A DNA stretch of 39,335 nt, taken from Spirochaetes bacterium ADurb.Bin218 (GTDB lineage Bacteria > Spirochaetota > UBA4802 > UBA5550). Under the pieces are notes generated by a model. The model saw only the letters and a program-made list of their open reading frames with translations, was not told the DNA's origin and made no database searches. The DNA lies in the NCBI GenBank assembly GCA_002069965.1, contig MWCI01000028.1, forward strand, positions 1-39,335. Direction: 5' to 3'. This document shows, piece by piece, positions 14,798-28,008 of the stretch (position 1 is its first letter; every line of letters starts with the position of its first letter). The translations under genes were made by a program, and so were the position numbers.

Positions 14798-15872
14798 GTC
14801 CACAGAAAAATTTTTATCCGCTGTCAAAAAATATAAAAAAATACTAATCGCTATTGTAGGCTCTCCAGATCCTGACGCAATTGCCTCCTCCTTTGCAATA
14901 ATGGAAATATTAAAAATCCAGAAAATCGATTCTGCTATTGTTTCACAAAGAGAGGTCTCTCTCTCACAAAACAGAGCATTCATGAAACTCCTTAAGATAC
15001 CAATAAAGGTGGATAGTCAATTTCACTGTGATGGATTTGATGCCTATATTGTAACAGACTTCCAGCTAAATCTTATAAAAAATGTCTCGGAAAAAATACC
15101 ATGTGCAGCTCATATCGATCATCATGAGCCAGAGAAAAATCGCATACCTGCTGATTTTACTCTTATCCGAACAGATTGCGGTTCAACAAGCGCCCTTGTA
15201 ACAACATTTGTAAAGGACTTAAAAGATGAACTAAATACAAAAGATTTACAACTTATATCCACTGCCTTGATGTTTGGAATTCAAACAGATACTGATTCAT
15301 GTGTACATGCCTCAGAGACAGATCTCGAAGCCATAAACTTTCTATCGCAATTTGCCAACAGTAAAATCATAAACAAGTTGAATGGCATACATTTTTCAGA
15401 AACAACAATGTCCTATTATAACAGGGCTTTAAAAAACCAAACACTTTATAAAGACTGGTGCTTTTACGGAATTGGTTTTATAGATATTCTCCATAGGGAT
15501 TCCATTGCTGTAATTGCAGATCTTCTCCTAAGAAAAAATTCCCACAGGCTTGTAGCTGTTTATTCTATAATATATGATGAGGACATGAAAGAGGTCTATC
15601 TTGATGTCTCTTTAAGAACAAAGAGCAAAACTCTTGATCTCAATTCTATGATCAAAAAAATTACCCCCTCAGGGGGAGGACGAACTTTTAAAGGAGCATA
15701 TCAAGTAAATCTGAATTATTTCCGATTCACAGACAAGAATCATCTATGGAGCCTTGTAGAAGAGGCAACGATTGATTGGCTCAAGAGATCCCGTGATTCT
15801 TCATATCTACATGAATTCTCTGGCATTGCAAAGAGCTTTCTCAATAGAATCATGGATTTCCTAAAAAAGTAA
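14790..15872 (+). CDS. DHH/DHHA1 family phosphoesterase (NrnA-like)
   Basis: A 360-residue member of the bifunctional oligoribonuclease/pAp-phosphatase family. The N-terminal DHH domain has the PDPDAIASS metal motif, a further VTD segment, and IDHHEP (D110, H111, H112). The C-terminal DHHA1 substrate-binding part carries SGGGRTFKGAYQ near residue 290-300, equivalent to the GGGHxxAAG loop but with Arg for the usual His. The likely substrate class is short oligonucleotides, cyclic dinucleotides or pAp; which one is open. Start is ATG 14790 with AAAGG nine bases upstream, inside the end of the upstream gene. The last 12 bases overlap the convergent SprA-like gene. Confidence 0.85.
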   Translation: MDESTEKFLSAVKKYKKILIAIVGSPDPDAIASSFAIMEILKIQKIDSAIVSQREVSLSQNRAFMKLLKIPIKVDSQFHCDGFDAYIVTDFQLNLIKNVSEKIPCAAHIDHHEPEKNRIPADFTLIRTDCGSTSALVTTFVKDLKDELNTKDLQLISTALMFGIQTDTDSCVHASETDLEAINFLSQFANSKIINKLNGIHFSETTMSYYNRALKNQTLYKDWCFYGIGFIDILHRDSIAVIADLLLRKNSHRLVAVYSIIYDEDMKEVYLDVSLRTKSKTLDLNSMIKKITPSGGGRTFKGAYQVNLNYFRFTDKNHLWSLVEEATIDWLKRSRDSSYLHEFSGIAKSFLNRIMDFLKK

Positions 15873-18800
15873 TGTAAACTTCCATGAAAGATCATAAGAT
15901 GCAACCTGAGATCTTATGCTTTCATCGCTTCTGTTTCTATAATTCTCCAAAGCCATATTTCCTGTTAATGTCCCTTTGACATTTTTGTGTATATTTAAAG
16001 TAAGGCCTGTTTTTATCTGATAAAGATCATAGGGCTCTGGTGAGATTGTTGCTGTATAGTTATATCTATTTATCTGCATAATATATTCAATAAAAAACAA
16101 AGGCACTCCAGATAAGGTATATACTGAGGCAAAATAATCATAAAGCCATTGAATCTCTCTTTCGTATGATATATTTAGCTTATAACCAAAATCCTCCTCC
16201 TTAAAATCTCTGTTTCCTTCAATGTTCTGCAGGTATAAATAATCTTTATCTGACTCAGATAGCTCTGAATCTATAAATTCTCTGTCTTTGAATAATCTAT
16301 AATCAAGGCCGCCACTTATCTTAAAGACACTTTTTTCCATTCTAAAAATAAAGGCAAGTAAAGGTGAAAAAGCATGCTCCTGTGTATTTGCTGTTATCAC
16401 CATAGTATCAGTGTAGGAGACAGAAGGCTCAAAGGTTATGGAATTAAAAAATGGTGGCTCTGACAAATTACTGTCTGTTACTTTGAAAAGAGTTATCTCG
16501 CAATCAGTTTTTATTCCTGTTGTTATTACCTGGTTTGGAATACCATATATATTATTCCTCCCACAATCCTGAGAAATATACAAAGATAGATTACACTTAA
16601 AATCATCAAAGACAAATTCATTATCCAGGGAGATCTTCTCATTAAATAAAAGTGAATTGTTATAATCAAGAGAAGAAATCCTTTCCTTAAGAGGTAAATC
16701 TGAATTGAGTTTTCCATAAACATAATCCCTTCCCCTTGCAAAATTGCCTCTGCCAGTGAAAAAATAATAGGGAGGATATTCAAATAAGTTATAGGCTCCC
16801 CCTGCTATATGGGAATACAATCTGGAAAGGCCATATTGCTCATTGAAAAGACCTGTTCCCTCTCCTTCATAGGGCACTGAGTTTTCATTTACACTTATGC
16901 TCCTTGAAAAATCCAGAACAAGGCTTCTCCATACCTCCAGAGACTTAAATTTTCTCATCACAAAAGGTATTTTAATCTTTGTGGAAAAAACGCTATATCC
17001 ATCCTTTGTCCTTGAAAAGCCAGAACCTGAAAAAGAATCCTCCGCATCGCTGAAATCATTTTCCCTGTAGTATGTTGATATTTCATACTCAGGCATAACA
17101 AAAAAATCCCCATTATAACCAAACTTTAGATCAAAATCATTTCCTCTCTCAAGAAGCCTGACATTATTATCCAGAATAAATGGGAAATGAAATCCTCCAT
17201 CAAAATTCTTTGATATCCCCAGATCCTTATCTGCATTTTCCCAGCTTACAACCTCATTTGTATAAGAAACAACTGAGGGTTTAATATAAAATCCATTGAG
17301 GAGATAAGCGAAATTACCAGAAAATCTTGAATCCTGATTTTTTATAGACTCCTTAAGATTAAAATCCCCTGAAAGCAAAGAGCTGTCTACCTCAGAGGAA
17401 TCCCTTTTTAAATTCTTTTCTGTAAAGGCAAGTGCTAAGGAAAAATCAAGCAGCAACTTACCATAAAAAAAATTCTCAAAATCCTGCTTCCATGTAACCA
17501 TAGAGTCATGGACACAAAGGAGTTCATTTTCTCTGTAGTCATAATCAGATATTTTGAGATTTTTTGTATTTTTGTTGTGGCTAAATTTATAATTAAGTCC
17601 TACTGAAGGGATACCACTCTCTGTTGACATAAATGAGCTTGTAACCTGTAACTGCTTATTTATGTTATCCCCTCTTTTATCAATGGAGATCTCCTCATCC
17701 AGACTATCTGAGCGACTTTTGCTGTATATATAATCAATGGCCAGATCGAGATTGGGCAAAACCTTACTTTTGCCATGAATCTCCTGGACATCCTCTTTTA
17801 TCTGCCCATTATTCTTGTTCAAAGAGTTGAAATTATCAGAATTGCCCCTTGCTATATATTTAAGATCAATATCAGACATTATTGGTCTGTTTGCAGAAGT
17901 CATAGCAAGAGCTTTCAATATCTTAAGATTTACCTCATACCATCTGGCATCTCCTTCTAATGTAACAGGATCAGAAACATAGATATCATCAAGCCATATC
18001 TTCCCTGAGGTTCCTGATCCTGATACTCCAAAGCGCATATATTTAATACGCCTCATGTCTGGATTTCCCTCTGTTCTGTAAGGAGCAATGTTACCTGCAT
18101 CTGAAGAAAGGCTAAGTCTGATCTCCTCCCATGAGTTTTCCATTAGAGGTCTAAACCTGTATTCAATATAATCTCTCTCTGTTGATCCGAGTATACAAAA
18201 CAAAGTAGCGGATGGAGCAATTACACGGGCATTGATCCAGATACTCATTGTCTTATAATATCTCAGATCCATTGCCTTATTAAAATTTCTGCCAAGAGAT
18301 AGATTTGTATTGCCTGCTGGAATGGAAAAGTTTATCTCCATGGCACTTTCACTTCTGCTATCTATATCATCAGTGCTATTGCTTCCATATAAAGATTCAT
18401 ATACGTTTCTTTTTTGATATAAAAATGAATTGATTCTGTAATCGCTGTCTGTAATTGTATTTAGCAATGCTATACTTAAGATGCTATCATCATCAATGGC
18501 TATATTATCAAGCATAGCCTCTTTCCATTTTAAGCTGACTATTTTAAAGGATGAAATATAAAGCCTGCCTTTTGTTCCAGATGAGGCAATTCCATAAAGC
18601 CTCAGGGATCTTGTCTGCTTTAAAATATTCTTTTCAGTGGTGCTTAAGGAATTTATATTGACCTTTATCTTTCTCCATGTAGATCCACTATGAATAATTG
18701 ACCCTAAGTTAACTTTAAATGAATTTTCAGATGTATCAAGGATTCCATTTTTGTTTAAATCCTCACTATTCAAAACTCCATCGCCCTTTGTAAAGCTACT

Positions 18801-21458
18801 CAACCCAGGACCACTGCCAACAAGGGTTTTATTATTCCCATCAAAACTATAGCCTCTATCTTCAGAGTATCCAGAAGAGGGATTAGCATCTATATATCCA
18901 TTATTATTGCTATCCTCTTTATCAAGTATTCCATCTCCATCAGAATCCTCATTAAGGCTTCCAAGGTCTAAAAATAAATCTATAGAATCAGTAGATGTTT
19001 GACCCTCAAGCCTAACCCACATTTCAATATATTGAATTCCAGAGAGATCAATAGCCTCTCTGTGTAAATCCTGGGTCACAACAGAAAAGCAATTCCCTGT
19101 GGCAAAATCATAGTCAAAGACCAATGATATCTGCGAGTCAAGGGATTTAACGCTGTCAGGTATATGACCTGTGGCAATATTGAAAGGTCCTGGTTTTGAG
19201 GAATATCCTATTTTATAAGCATTAAAACTCTCACCCTTTAGAGACTCAGGATTGGATAGATCTCTATAATAATAGTAATAGATTAAAGCTCTGTTGCTTT
19301 GAGAGAATCCTTCTGGCATTGAGCCTAATATCCACTTTTTATCAGAAAGATCTATATCAACAATATCATCACTGGATTCCATGTTATCTATAAGAGCTTT
19401 TCCGAAGGTATTTATATTTTTATAGCTCCTCGCATATTCCCCATAAAATGAAAGCTCAAGAGGAATTTTTCTCACTCTCTTCCCATAAAGATTTTCAATA
19501 ATATCTGATAGTCTCTCAGGTGATAATTTAAGCAAAAGATCTCCCTCGTATAGATTTGTCTGAGTGCTTGCCTCTCCAATATCAGGTATTACATCAGATT
19601 TGGTGTCCTTCTCCACCAAAAGTGAAGTACCTATCTTTATATCCCTTGTAAGGCTATAATCAAGCCTTAAACCAGCAGCAAAGCTATCTGATGAGGCACC
19701 CAATGGCAGATACTGATATCGGACCTCAATTTCTGTTTGAGATGAAATCATAGGGTTGTTTGAATTGGTGAAAAAAATATATCCAGCGGTATAATCAACT
19801 GAATAGAGAGATTTGCTGAGTTCTTTTTTATCAACTTTTATGGTCACGCTATTTTCTATTATATTTCCATGTTTAAGCTGAATGGTTCTTGCCTCTGTGG
19901 AAAACTCAGCATTGATGCTATACCTGGAATATATGTATACATCATTTAAAAATTTTTCGCTGTAGATTAAATCTGCTCTATTTCCAAGAAGAGCTCTAAA
20001 GGGCTCACGGAGATTAAATTTTACAATTCCGTTTTCTCTATCGACACTGTAAGGTGAAAGTTTTTCTACATCTGCCCTTGTAAGATCTGAGTTCTCTCCT
20101 CTAAAAAACAGAGACATGTTCCCTGCTGCAATATTTCGACAACCGAGAGAATAGAATGAACGAATTTCATATATATCAAGGTTAACTCTGCCATCATTGT
20201 TATAGTCCTTTTCTCCTATATCAAAGGCCAAATTTTTTGACACTGTATCTTCATTGAGGGAATATCCATACTTTATAAAAACTATGTTCTTGCCAGAAAA
20301 TTCACCTCCAGGATGCTTTGGATCCCCAGGAGGTATTGCACAGGGATCAAGCGTGCCACCCTGCCTTTGATATACCACAAATATCCTTGCACTTTCATCT
20401 ATAGATTTTAGAAAGGTTATAACCCCTGTGGAATAGTTAACAGAATAATCAACTCCATTTACAAGCCTTGTGTAATAACCACCGTCTATGGGAAACTTAA
20501 TAGCATTGAGATTATTATAAGGATTTTGATCATCAAGGTAAACAGCAAAACCCTCTGGAGAGATATTCACAGGATTTAAAGAATAATTTGCAGGAGAAGG
20601 TGGAGTTGAGGTTATTGCATTGAGCAAATAAACAGAAGCTCCAGAGGGCATAGAAGAAACACCATCATACCTTATAAAGGGCTCAAGCTGATAATAGGTT
20701 CTCCTGACAAACTGATAATCTGATACCTTGCCTGTATTTCTTGAAAAATTACCCTTAAAATATTCTATTGAAGACTCACCTCTTAAAACAGAGCCAAAGG
20801 CCTTTAAAGAAAAATTATTTTTAGCTACGGTAAAATCAACTCCAAGCCCCTTGGACATGCTATTGTCATAAACAGCATAACGGGAATGATTAAAATTAAT
20901 ATCAATCTCCCCGGCATTTACACTGCGAATAACCTCATCATCCTCAATGGCAGTATAATTCATCATATAGTGATTTTGATCCTTACTCCTGGTGCTATCG
21001 TGATCTATATACATTTTAATTCTCTTACCAATATAGCCATCAGCATAGAGCCTAACCACTTGTTCTGGATAAAAGCCCTCAGTTATAACTCTTGATCTTG
21101 GTTTATCCTCATCAAAGAGTTTATATTTGCTGTTTGTAAAAAAGCTATTTCCATAGGTAAAAGAGAAAGAAGCCTCACCATCTATAAAGACATCAACATC
21201 CTCTGATGAATAGAGAGGTTCCTTGTTGCTATTTAAATAGTTGCCATAGAGATTCCGCTCTATATATTCAGATTGATTAGAATCGTAAATGTTAGCTTCC
21301 CCCTCCTTGGGGGTCTCTGTTTTTTTTGCAGGGTTTTCTTTTTCAAGGTAATAGAGGAGCTTCTCTTTAAAGCCTTTCTCATCAGCAAAGAGTGCAAAAA
21401 TTCCTGAGATTATTAAAAAACTCGCAAGAATATATACAAAGGATTTTCCAGGAAGCAT
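15861..21458 (-). CDS. Giant SprA-like outer-membrane beta-barrel protein
   Basis: A 1865-residue exported protein: signal sequence (about 1-25), a Glu/Lys-rich linker, then almost continuous beta strands to a terminal Phe. Two regions recall SprA/Sov, the type IX secretion translocon. One is near residues 130-190 (IGKRIKMYIDHDSTRS, then AIEDDEVIRSVNAGEIDI). The other is near 1080-1190 (MSIWINARV, then KIWLDDIYVSD and ARWYEVNLKI). Calcium-loop motifs (DSDGDGILDKED near 836, GDGVLNSEDLNKNG near 890, DYNNDGRVNLD near 418) interrupt the barrel. The alternating aromatic strands from about 1200 onward look like transmembrane barrel strands. No clear ribosome-binding site precedes ATG 21458. It is downstream of an M23 peptidase gene on the same strand. 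Confidence 0.72.
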   Translation of the reverse strand: MLPGKSFVYILASFLIISGIFALFADEKGFKEKLLYYLEKENPAKKTETPKEGEANIYDSNQSEYIERNLYGNYLNSNKEPLYSSEDVDVFIDGEASFSFTYGNSFFTNSKYKLFDEDKPRSRVITEGFYPEQVVRLYADGYIGKRIKMYIDHDSTRSKDQNHYMMNYTAIEDDEVIRSVNAGEIDINFNHSRYAVYDNSMSKGLGVDFTVAKNNFSLKAFGSVLRGESSIEYFKGNFSRNTGKVSDYQFVRRTYYQLEPFIRYDGVSSMPSGASVYLLNAITSTPPSPANYSLNPVNISPEGFAVYLDDQNPYNNLNAIKFPIDGGYYTRLVNGVDYSVNYSTGVITFLKSIDESARIFVVYQRQGGTLDPCAIPPGDPKHPGGEFSGKNIVFIKYGYSLNEDTVSKNLAFDIGEKDYNNDGRVNLDIYEIRSFYSLGCRNIAAGNMSLFFRGENSDLTRADVEKLSPYSVDRENGIVKFNLREPFRALLGNRADLIYSEKFLNDVYIYSRYSINAEFSTEARTIQLKHGNIIENSVTIKVDKKELSKSLYSVDYTAGYIFFTNSNNPMISSQTEIEVRYQYLPLGASSDSFAAGLRLDYSLTRDIKIGTSLLVEKDTKSDVIPDIGEASTQTNLYEGDLLLKLSPERLSDIIENLYGKRVRKIPLELSFYGEYARSYKNINTFGKALIDNMESSDDIVDIDLSDKKWILGSMPEGFSQSNRALIYYYYYRDLSNPESLKGESFNAYKIGYSSKPGPFNIATGHIPDSVKSLDSQISLVFDYDFATGNCFSVVTQDLHREAIDLSGIQYIEMWVRLEGQTSTDSIDLFLDLGSLNEDSDGDGILDKEDSNNNGYIDANPSSGYSEDRGYSFDGNNKTLVGSGPGLSSFTKGDGVLNSEDLNKNGILDTSENSFKVNLGSIIHSGSTWRKIKVNINSLSTTEKNILKQTRSLRLYGIASSGTKGRLYISSFKIVSLKWKEAMLDNIAIDDDSILSIALLNTITDSDYRINSFLYQKRNVYESLYGSNSTDDIDSRSESAMEINFSIPAGNTNLSLGRNFNKAMDLRYYKTMSIWINARVIAPSATLFCILGSTERDYIEYRFRPLMENSWEEIRLSLSSDAGNIAPYRTEGNPDMRRIKYMRFGVSGSGTSGKIWLDDIYVSDPVTLEGDARWYEVNLKILKALAMTSANRPIMSDIDLKYIARGNSDNFNSLNKNNGQIKEDVQEIHGKSKVLPNLDLAIDYIYSKSRSDSLDEEISIDKRGDNINKQLQVTSSFMSTESGIPSVGLNYKFSHNKNTKNLKISDYDYRENELLCVHDSMVTWKQDFENFFYGKLLLDFSLALAFTEKNLKRDSSEVDSSLLSGDFNLKESIKNQDSRFSGNFAYLLNGFYIKPSVVSYTNEVVSWENADKDLGISKNFDGGFHFPFILDNNVRLLERGNDFDLKFGYNGDFFVMPEYEISTYYRENDFSDAEDSFSGSGFSRTKDGYSVFSTKIKIPFVMRKFKSLEVWRSLVLDFSRSISVNENSVPYEGEGTGLFNEQYGLSRLYSHIAGGAYNLFEYPPYYFFTGRGNFARGRDYVYGKLNSDLPLKERISSLDYNNSLLFNEKISLDNEFVFDDFKCNLSLYISQDCGRNNIYGIPNQVITTGIKTDCEITLFKVTDSNLSEPPFFNSITFEPSVSYTDTMVITANTQEHAFSPLLAFIFRMEKSVFKISGGLDYRLFKDREFIDSELSESDKDYLYLQNIEGNRDFKEEDFGYKLNISYEREIQWLYDYFASVYTLSGVPLFFIEYIMQINRYNYTATISPEPYDLYQIKTGLTLNIHKNVKGTLTGNMALENYRNRSDESIRSQVASYDLSWKFTLLF

Positions 21459-25561: not shown

Positions 25562-25581
25562 GGAACAGATGTTCCCTATTT
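25556..25581. terminator. Bidirectional intrinsic terminator containing both stop codons
   Basis: An 11-bp perfect stem (25556-25566 pairing with 25571-25581) with a 4-base AGAT loop, flanked by a T-run on the right and an A-rich stretch on the left. The TAG of the plus-strand small gene (25559-25561) and the TAG of the minus-strand gene (25578-25576) both lie inside the stem at mirrored positions. Confidence 0.75.
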
Positions 25582-28008
25582 TTCTTTCACCTGAATTGTC
25601 ATGGAACTATTTCCTTTAAGTAAGAGAGCATCTCTGCCTGAAAAGTCTTTGTCACCAAAGAATAGAAAGTAACCAGCCCCTTGAGAATCGGGGATATAAA
25701 GCCCAACATCTTCAAATCTATCTTTAGACTCAGGTGATTTAACAAAGCAGATAAAAGATATTATATCCCTTTTCTTTAAAAATTTTAAAGCCATTATAGC
25801 AAGCTCCTCAGATGTGGCAGATCTTAATCTTATTATTTCAGAAATGGGCTGTGGTTCAAAATTAAAATTACCATTAATCAAAAAATAGCTATCCAAAAAA
25901 TTTTTAAGGACAGGAACTATATCCTTAAGCTCCCTGGACTCTGAATTAACAGGCAGATCAATCTCATCACCTAAAAGGGATACTAAATTATCATACCAAC
26001 CAGCGAATCTATCTTGCAAATTAAAAAGACCCGCAGATAGAAAAAGTGTAGAGCTACTGTCTATTGATCTTTTATTTTCCTGAATAAAGAGAATACCATC
26101 TCTTTCTTTAAATTTCAACTTCTCACCATCTAATACAACCTCAGGGGATATAATATCTGTAGTTATTTCTAAAGAAATTTCTGATAGATTTTCCTCTGGC
26201 ATTTTAATTGGAAAATTTTCTATTATATAAAAAGGAAATCTATCAGGTGGAAAAAATCCGCTATAGCTTATGACTACAAAATCCCCGGATGCAGAACCCA
26301 TAATTGAAAGAGAAGCCTCTTGCCCTGGTAACATATCCAGTTGATAGCCAACATTATGGACAGTGTTATCTTTAACAATAATGACATACAAAATATGGAG
26401 TTTTGATAAATTGAGTAGCTTTGCAGAGCCTTTAAACTCAGATACAGGAATATAATCCTCACAATGAATAAAATAATTCCCTTCGGGAAAGATTTTTATA
26501 GAGATATTTCTCTTTACCCCTCCCCTCTTAAAATTAAACTCAGAGGTTTCATACTTTGGAGTATAATACAAATAGCCCTTGCCACTGTGCTCATATATCT
26601 CACGGCTTTCCCATATTTTCCTATCCCACTTCTTACTCAGGGACTTTTCCCAATAGAGCACAGGATCAAGACCCTTCTCCATATCAAGCCTGCCAAGCTC
26701 ATAAAAATAAAAAGGACAATTGCTCAGAGATGCCTTATTCAAAAGGTAATTTCTGTATTCCTCTCTATCAAGAATCTTTGAGCGAAATTTTAAGGCTTTC
26801 TTTGTAAACGAAGGAATCTCCTCAAAGAGATTGCTTAGAGTCAACACCCTCTGATTATCTTTATCGATCAATAAAAGTGAGCAATATAAATCAAAGATAT
26901 CGCTATTAAAATAATTTACCGGGAGATTCTTTGCCGCTTCTTTAAATTTATACAAATCCCTCTTTGAATAAAAATCACAGAGCCACTTAAGATAATAGGA
27001 AGAATCAGGAAAATTCTCTCTGTATTTATTTAGATAAAGCAAAAATTCAGCCTCATTGCCTGATTCCTCAAGCATAGGCAAAAGATAATAATAACCATCC
27101 GCCTTATCGCCATTGGCAGAAGAAAAATTTAAGGCAATGCTTAGCTTCTCTTCAAAAGAAGAAGCCCCTCTGAGTAAATCTTCAATACCTGAGCTTTCTT
27201 TCTGTAAATTGCCAGTTTCCTCTGTTAAACAAACAAGGCTATCAAGGGGAAAACTCTCTATAAATCTCTTCTCACAATAAAGAGGCAATATTTCATTATT
27301 CTGCAAATCAGTAAGTATAACCTTAACAAAGGGATCCTTATAATATTCTGTTAAATTCATTTTTATAATGACAGTATAATTCCCACCACTTTTAAACTCC
27401 ATAGCTTCAAAGGGGAGAGCGCAATCCTTTAAAACAATTGAATTATTAACAAAGAGCCTATATCTGGAATTAGATTGGATAAATAGCCTGAAAGCCTTAT
27501 CTACAGAAAAAGAAAAAGCTAAATAATATACTCCTTCTTTATCTGGATAGAGAGGATAAAGTTTGCCAGAATCATTGCATAGATCCTCTGAGGAAAAGTT
27601 ATTGAAATCCTTTGATCTCTCCACAGGAAAGTGATACTCCAGATCCCATTGACCGTATCTCTTCCATGGACCAGAAACCTTCCATTGAGTTATCCCTTTA
27701 TAAAAAGGCTTTGCCATCTTAAGCTCATCAGAAATAATCTGAACAAAAGGAATAATCGCTCCTTCAGCTTTAGATTTTTGCAAAGACAGTAAATATTCAT
27801 CAAAAAATTTAATCGTCCGATCAAGTCCATAATCTCTGGATAATTCATATATAGAAATAATATCTCTATAAGAAGCAGGAGACTTTGAAGCTATTAAACT
27901 CTCTTTTAGGCTTTCATACTTAGAATTATCAAAAGTGGCACCAGAGGCTGAGAAGGAACAAAGAAATAAACAAAAAAACATTAAACATCTATAAATCACA
28001 GGCCTCAT
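25576..28008 (-). CDS. Large secreted multi-domain protein with helical repeats and possible degenerate transglutaminase-like tail
   Basis: An 810-residue protein with a signal peptide (cleavage probably after ASG). Residues about 105-235 form a beta domain resembling PA14 or galactose-binding modules (WKVSGPWKRYGQWDLEYHFP, later RYRLFVNNSIVLKD). Residues about 270-480 are TPR-like helices. Residues about 490-690 are beta-rich. The segment near 740-790 (IIRLRSATSEELAIMALKFL) has the spacing of the transglutaminase-like DCxDxA helix found after DUF3857 modules, but the catalytic Cys is absent and no His-Asp pair is visible. I do not assign a function; a surface or periplasmic binding protein is most likely. 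GAGG precedes the ATG. Confidence 0.65.
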   Translation of the reverse strand: MRPVIYRCLMFFCLFLCSFSASGATFDNSKYESLKESLIASKSPASYRDIISIYELSRDYGLDRTIKFFDEYLLSLQKSKAEGAIIPFVQIISDELKMAKPFYKGITQWKVSGPWKRYGQWDLEYHFPVERSKDFNNFSSEDLCNDSGKLYPLYPDKEGVYYLAFSFSVDKAFRLFIQSNSRYRLFVNNSIVLKDCALPFEAMEFKSGGNYTVIIKMNLTEYYKDPFVKVILTDLQNNEILPLYCEKRFIESFPLDSLVCLTEETGNLQKESSGIEDLLRGASSFEEKLSIALNFSSANGDKADGYYYLLPMLEESGNEAEFLLYLNKYRENFPDSSYYLKWLCDFYSKRDLYKFKEAAKNLPVNYFNSDIFDLYCSLLLIDKDNQRVLTLSNLFEEIPSFTKKALKFRSKILDREEYRNYLLNKASLSNCPFYFYELGRLDMEKGLDPVLYWEKSLSKKWDRKIWESREIYEHSGKGYLYYTPKYETSEFNFKRGGVKRNISIKIFPEGNYFIHCEDYIPVSEFKGSAKLLNLSKLHILYVIIVKDNTVHNVGYQLDMLPGQEASLSIMGSASGDFVVISYSGFFPPDRFPFYIIENFPIKMPEENLSEISLEITTDIISPEVVLDGEKLKFKERDGILFIQENKRSIDSSSTLFLSAGLFNLQDRFAGWYDNLVSLLGDEIDLPVNSESRELKDIVPVLKNFLDSYFLINGNFNFEPQPISEIIRLRSATSEELAIMALKFLKKRDIISFICFVKSPESKDRFEDVGLYIPDSQGAGYFLFFGDKDFSGRDALLLKGNSSMTIQVKEK

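Follow-up and report, generated by a model that had tools for sequence, protein, structure and literature searches.

A giant SprA homologue in a spirochaete and a possible type-IX-like secretion pathway in Spirochaetota

Type IX secretion has been described in a review as specific to Bacteroidota (PMC7463736) and TXSScan detected such systems in Bacteroidetes alone (PMC4793230); the literature searched, the coverage of which was incomplete, contained no report of type IX secretion in a spirochaete. The window analysed here, i.e. the whole stretch of 39,335 nucleotides, encodes a giant protein in which the initial annotation, made from the sequence alone, recognised a resemblance to SprA/Sov, the outer-membrane translocon of type IX secretion, leaving it undecided whether this was a translocon of distant kinship or represented a new class of large barrels for export or lipid transport. 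The locus raises the question whether a SprA-type translocon is present in a spirochaete and what it could be used for. The proposed frame was confirmed as an intact ORF of 1865 aa on the minus strand (15861-21458), whose product starts with a stretch resembling a signal peptide and has Phe as its last residue, and the following two features were assigned to it.

15861..21458 (including the stop codon), minus strand: SprA-like giant outer-membrane protein, assigned from full-length homologues, a TIGR04189 match and an hhalign alignment to Bacteroidota SprA
21384..21458, minus strand: probable Sec signal peptide, approximately residues 1-25, MLPGKSFVYILASFLIISGIFALFA, read from the sequence without a predictor

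The gene was matched in 49 out of 59 relatives, mostly as a single, full-length and unbroken frame, and is therefore considered a real conserved gene. Identities within the order of the window range from 34 to 49%; the protein is conserved at full length across this spirochaete order and divergent forms occur across Spirochaetota. Two near-complete relatives (G014 and G029) gave no SprA-like match, due to either an assembly gap or a real loss, and one of them (G029) retains a strong PorV despite this.

When analysing the surroundings of the gene, the impression that they do not look like Bacteroidota was borne out. The host is a spirochaete, since the window also holds a match to a Borrelia-type flagellar transglycosylase and since the titles of related public contigs name Spirochaetes, Spirochaetota, Leptospiraceae or Turneriella, with a few exceptions. 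MWDJ01000049.1 (L131, titled Bacteroidetes bacterium ADurb.Bin145) is a Spirochaetota contig with 53% identity to the window protein and the same MlaD-RadA-M23 synteny, and since canonical Bacteroidota SprA and GldM are found on other contigs of the same MAG, this MAG is considered mixed. Two further records carrying the SprA-like family, L150 (titled Caldithrix) and L152 (titled Hydrogenedentota), may likewise be misnamed or mixed. The neighbours of the gene are an M23 peptidase, RadA and MlaD on the same strand and DHH and SpoIIE on the opposite strand, an arrangement kept in part of the order only, and the M23-RadA-MlaD adjacency is at most a possible functional link. No PorV, PorU or Gld genes were seen in the window, of which not every ORF was scanned, in agreement with the earlier remark that PorV, GldK-N and PorU are missing there. 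Across the order, too, the genes adjoining that for the SprA-like protein include no secretion genes, which counts against a type-IX-like reading. Beside MlaD (25576-28008, minus strand) lies a gene for an 810-aa protein without Pfam or NCBIfam matches that was only seen in the closest of the compared loci.

The NCBIfam model of SprA, TIGR04189, matches the window protein in place with an E value of 4.2e-18 (63.5 bits; curated equivalog cut-off 200 bits). Among 296 Spirochaetota genomes the model gave matches in 75, none of them above the equivalog cut-off, and the matches are collinear, covering model positions ~100-260, 520-800, 896-967 and 1280-1456. A Pfam search assigned the window protein to no family, and the check proposed in the initial annotation, SprA_N (PF14349), failed to give a match, though without a positive control. 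Since the TIGR04189 score is below the cut-off and SprA_N is not matched, the protein is here called a SprA homologue and not an orthologous SprA or equivalog. The profile-profile comparison, also proposed earlier, gave a far clearer result. Using hhalign, sequences from the order only were aligned with 14 Bacteroidota SprA at a probability of 100 and an E value of 3.1e-51 over ~1,090 columns, with an aligned identity between window protein and SprA of 16–17%. Both segments first said to recall SprA, near residues 130-190 and 1080-1190, fall inside this stretch (~79-1171 or beyond).

17946..21224, minus strand: SprA-aligned region, residues 79-1171 (local hhalign, 1020 columns without realignment; the 1090-column alignment reaches slightly further)
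19284..19928, minus strand: strongest TIGR04189 block, model positions 581-796 (E 4.2e-18, 63.5 bits)
18927-19088, minus strand: second TIGR04189 block, model positions 900-955, from the same search

The reverse search, in which a profile of the window's order together with three Leptospiraceae-type sequences was used and the search size was set to 5000, matched Bacteroidota SprA with E values down to 1.5e-47. The 14 Bacteroidota sequences were taken from the phylum of a genome that had been reached via a mis-binned contig, and are genuine SprA, matching PDB entries 6h3i and 6h3j with an E value of 0. PDB searches with single sequences gave nothing useful, nor did three profile searches based on alignments of spirochaete proteins, and a first scan of genome contigs using the single window protein gave no match; the null results of the PDB and profile searches reflect divergence and HMMER filtering, as Bacteroidota SprA finds 6h3i at once. 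The homology between the window protein and SprA is beyond doubt.

Matches named "phage tail tube" or "distal tail" in NCBIfam (residues 524-584) were discarded as a short beta motif common to other proteins, and the homology is not rested on this block because the SprA model picks up other Bacteroidota proteins through the same motif. In 11 Bacteroidota genomes (G307, G309, G311, G313, G314, G317, G319, G320, G324, G325 and G328) model positions 601-689 match one separate protein per genome of 1061-1274 aa, possibly PorU; if so, a beta motif is common to SprA and a second protein of type IX secretion.

The initial annotation described the calcium-loop motifs of the protein as inserted. The motifs are present and conserved in the family, E837, D838, D842 and D900 being invariant, but they align with ISEDIL.DG and TEDLNxNN.LD of SprA in the same order and are therefore shared features, not insertions.

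18723..18950, minus strand: acidic EDSDGDG...GDGVLNSEDLNKNGILD loops at residues 837-912; family-wide conservation, SprA counterparts present

To follow up the suggested structure prediction for a barrel of 30-plus strands, AlphaFold2 was used on two overlapping parts (residues 1000-1865 and 85-1200), the protein being too long to fold at once. The model of residues 1000-1865 (mean pLDDT 88.6, pTM 0.72) has ~25 strands of at least 12 residues and its best PDB matches are four SprA translocons (E 9.9e-15 to 1e-11), followed by BtuB at 1.3e-4. The model of residues 85-1200 (pLDDT 82.4, pTM 0.49) shows further strands in the N-terminal half and again has SprA entries as best matches (8gl6, 8gl8, 6h3i and 6h3j; E 2.3e-38 to 2.2e-25), the next being at 1.3e-5.

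15864..18011, minus strand: C-terminal barrel half, residues 1150-1865, with ~25 strands of at least 12 residues and ending in Phe (AlphaFold2 model, PDB matches, F1865)

The terminal F1865 is invariant in the family. As the sequence alignment stops near residue 1171-1250, the fold result for the C-terminal half is largely independent of it. When superimposed globally on SprA, the half models gave moderate TM values (0.27-0.50), as expected of fragments, and because of this and the modelling in halves the number of strands, a closed 36-strand barrel and the side opening are unproven. SprA is accordingly the best match for both halves, with a large number of long strands in the C-terminal one, but a closed barrel of more than 30 strands in one piece was not obtained.

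These results also bear on whether the protein could be an unrelated large barrel (TonB-dependent, LptD-like or for lipid transport) with a chance resemblance to SprA. MlaD is a near neighbour in part of the order and TonB-dependent receptors appear as weak fold matches of the C-terminal half, but no neighbouring MlaD was seen beyond the order, SprA is at least seven orders of magnitude ahead of all other folds in both halves, and chance would have to account for a profile match of 3.1e-51 over 1,090 collinear columns. On homology this explanation is refuted, and hardly any likelihood is left to it. The lipid-transport option of the initial annotation has no positive support beyond the neighbouring MlaD, whereas its other option, a distant translocon, is supported by the SprA homology and by PorV and CTD partners encoded in the same genome outside the window.

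These partners were revealed when the genome was searched for PorV, GldM and proteins with type IX C-terminal domains (CTDs), largely as had been proposed: a PorV-family protein was found above the cut-off, a CTD protein was borderline and no GldM was recognised. On contig C39 (L105:9833-11032) of the window's genome a PorV/PorQ-family protein, called UPF0164 by Pfam, matches NF033709 (PorV_fam) at 119-120 bits (E 3e-34; curated cut-off 90 bits). On contig C16 a weaker PorV-like gene (L107:1287-2309; E 2.2e-11) is preceded directly upstream by a gene for a secreted protein of 119 aa (L107:2311-2670) and followed by folP, a trio also present in three relatives. Among NCBIfam models the 119-aa protein best matches those of PorZ (5.1e-9) and PorU (6e-6), in both cases at the C-terminal end, followed by Por_Secre_tail; it scores 24.7 bits for the NCBIfam type IX sorting domain (cut-off 23), and in Pfam 26.7 bits for Por_Secre_tail (cut-off 27) and 26.2 bits for FlgD_ig, both just under the cut-off. 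The putative assignment as a CTD is borderline on its own, but gains weight because a PorV-like gene adjoins. Aligned CTDs share PxPF, IYxxxGxxV and GxY elements and the small CTD proteins end with a KK pair. A solved complex shows a contact between PorV and a lysine of the type A CTD (PMC10994853); that the KK pair corresponds to this lysine is not shown here.

Only one CTD-like protein was detected in the window's genome, and for most of its relatives in the order the number is likewise about one. One relative (G012) has an 814-aa protein with a CTD-like domain at its C-terminus; matches in two others (G025, 1752 aa, and G026, 522 aa) were not C-terminal and were discarded. The cargo in the window's genome is uncertain, since there is a single near-threshold CTD protein to which an FlgD Ig domain fits almost equally. 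As the visible CTD repertoire of the order is this small, the main rival is a narrower role around the CTD-only protein: a genuine but repurposed SprA homologue, still binding one CTD-only protein and PorV-like barrels for envelope assembly or surface anchoring and not for general secretion. This would agree with the one CTD protein per genome, set against dozens elsewhere, and with the resemblance of the 119-aa protein to the CTDs of PorU and PorZ, which anchor to PorV/PorQ and are not ordinary cargo (PMC7463736). PorA of P. gingivalis, likewise a CTD protein, stays stably on PorV-Sov (PMC8754138). However, the barrel is conserved at full length, a full PorV_fam homologue is present, the 814-aa protein does carry a terminal CTD-like domain, and CTD detection is insensitive, so that cargo with divergent tails could be missed. 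Such a repurposing is considered unlikely but cannot be set aside.

In the sampled Spirochaetota a SprA-like gene was found, using two profiles, in 136 of 296 genomes, and PorV-family genes (E<=1e-10) in 120 of these 136 compared to 12 of the 160 without. Counted by family the co-occurrence is 35/2/2/11 (Fisher p 1.5e-7), the counts having been made by hand and not corrected for relatedness between families. Six genomes of other families are rich in type IX sorting-domain matches (G056 43, G068 51, G173 27, G047 20, G076 18 and G161 13), and in ten of the Spirochaetota genomes searched ~15 CTD genes lie on the same strand directly upstream of a PorV-family gene (e.g. G056:C108, G068:C312, G047:C85 and G106:C28), to which the pair in the window's genome is to be added. 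When the coordinates of the PorV and CTD searches were combined no reversed pair was noticed among them. The putative cargo in such CTD-rich genomes includes a putative glucoamylase and a GH16 enzyme, each with a PorV-family gene immediately behind it, and also an FG-GAP protein.

Some further observations concern individual genomes. G056 and G068 have at least seven PorV-family genes each in genomes of ~3 Mb (first-look candidates 61 and 82). In family f24 (e.g. G200, G275 and G142) the SprA-like proteins, missed by the first profile (A3), are mostly ~1700-2100 aa, and each f24 genome with a long SprA-like protein has a PorV-family protein of ~430-490 aa. Within f24 the genus g44 (G063, G074, G145, G175 and G181) has a short SprA-like frame, ~1140 aa where it is single and 368 + 817 aa in G181, and two g44 genomes have one in-frame TGA inside the SprA-like match; the short frames suggest that in this one genus the translocon is truncated or decaying.

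The motor component GldM (TIGR03517) was not found in 20 genomes of the window's own group, in a search without control, nor in the window's genome and 15 further Spirochaetota including CTD-rich ones, in a search where the Bacteroidota control gave 6.4e-113. The best weak GldM-like match (G055) was rejected as the coiled coil of a chemotaxis receptor. Because GldM was searched for and not found, the pathway is not regarded as a canonical type IX system, and it is inferred that the energy source of the spirochaete pathway is not a recognisable GldM. A quick tree groups all 14 Bacteroidota SprA in a single clade on a long branch (support 1.0) and leaves the spirochaete sequences outside it, which speaks against a recent transfer from the sampled Bacteroidota. 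That a complete canonical type IX system was recently acquired from Bacteroidota, as could be imagined from a barrel, a PorV family and CTD classes that are those of the Bacteroidota system, is mostly refuted by the lack of a GldM match in the genomes searched, by this tree and by the presence of SprA-like genes across much of Spirochaetota, and is very improbable.

The reading preferred here, with a probability of roughly 0.75, is that the window protein is a SprA/Sov homologue serving as the outer-membrane translocon of a type-IX-like secretion pathway, the transport itself being inferred. A stripped-down or differently powered version of type IX secretion is probably widespread in spirochaetes. 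More tentatively, Spirochaetota may have an ancient type-9-like pathway that does not need the GldLM rotary motor and that supplies many cargo proteins with a PorV shuttle of their own, encoded by the gene directly downstream, a proposal that is possible but for the present doubtful.

In F. johnsoniae the CTD of the cargo, inside SprA, binds loops of PorV that enter via the side opening, and an energy input pulls the PorV-cargo pair out of SprA (PMC10994853). By analogy, the spirochaete protein would most likely act like F. johnsoniae SprA with PorV-family partners. Cargo would be brought to the periplasm by Sec, as in Bacteroidota, and enter the wide SprA-like barrel; a PorV/FadL-type barrel positioned at the barrel's side opening would bind the C-terminal Ig-like domain of the cargo, the CTD, and the cargo would then leave sideways together with this shuttle. 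Protein transport by the window protein, the lateral-gate mechanism, its pairing with the PorV and CTD proteins described here and the source of energy are all inferred.

If a SprA homologue together with PorV and CTD partners is indeed distributed across Spirochaetota, among them (by record title) relatives of Leptospira and Turneriella, this would point to a translocon that predates Bacteroidota. Spirochaetes would then also have a candidate pathway for bringing proteins to the surface or secreting them, the unexplained UPF0164 proteins would gain a suggested function, and it could be tested whether the translocon runs without the GldLM motor.

Compared with the known systems, the window protein is collinear with SprA of F. 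johnsoniae (6h3i, 6h3j, 8gl6 and 8gl8) and Sov of Porphyromonas gingivalis from residue 79 to at least 1171, both halves match, and acidic TEDLN-type loops, a signal peptide and a predicted very large outer-membrane barrel are shared. It differs in its length (~1865 aa against ~2400), in the aligned identity of only 16–17%, in falling outside the Bacteroidota clade and below the TIGR04189 equivalog cut-off, and in its Spirochaetota host, in which no GldM was recognised. The 119-aa protein, encoded beside a PorV-like gene, is similar to the domain at the C-terminus of PorU and PorZ, and in this respect to the CTD proteins of the attachment complex (PorU/PorZ/PorA), but it consists of a signal peptide and the putative CTD only, with no protease, propeller or other domain. 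The PorV/PorQ family (NF033709) overlaps with Pfam UPF0164 of spirochaetes, the protein on contig C39 being above the cut-off, and the spirochaete members carry, unlike PorV/PorQ, an additional TPR-like helical stretch at the C-terminus. A single PorV serves every type A tail in F. johnsoniae, where a dedicated shuttle, encoded downstream and belonging to the PorP/SprF family, is confined to type B tails (PMC12618676), whereas several Spirochaetota encode a PorV-family gene directly downstream of the CTD gene; a PorV gene paired with a gene for type A-like cargo would be a different arrangement from that of F. johnsoniae.
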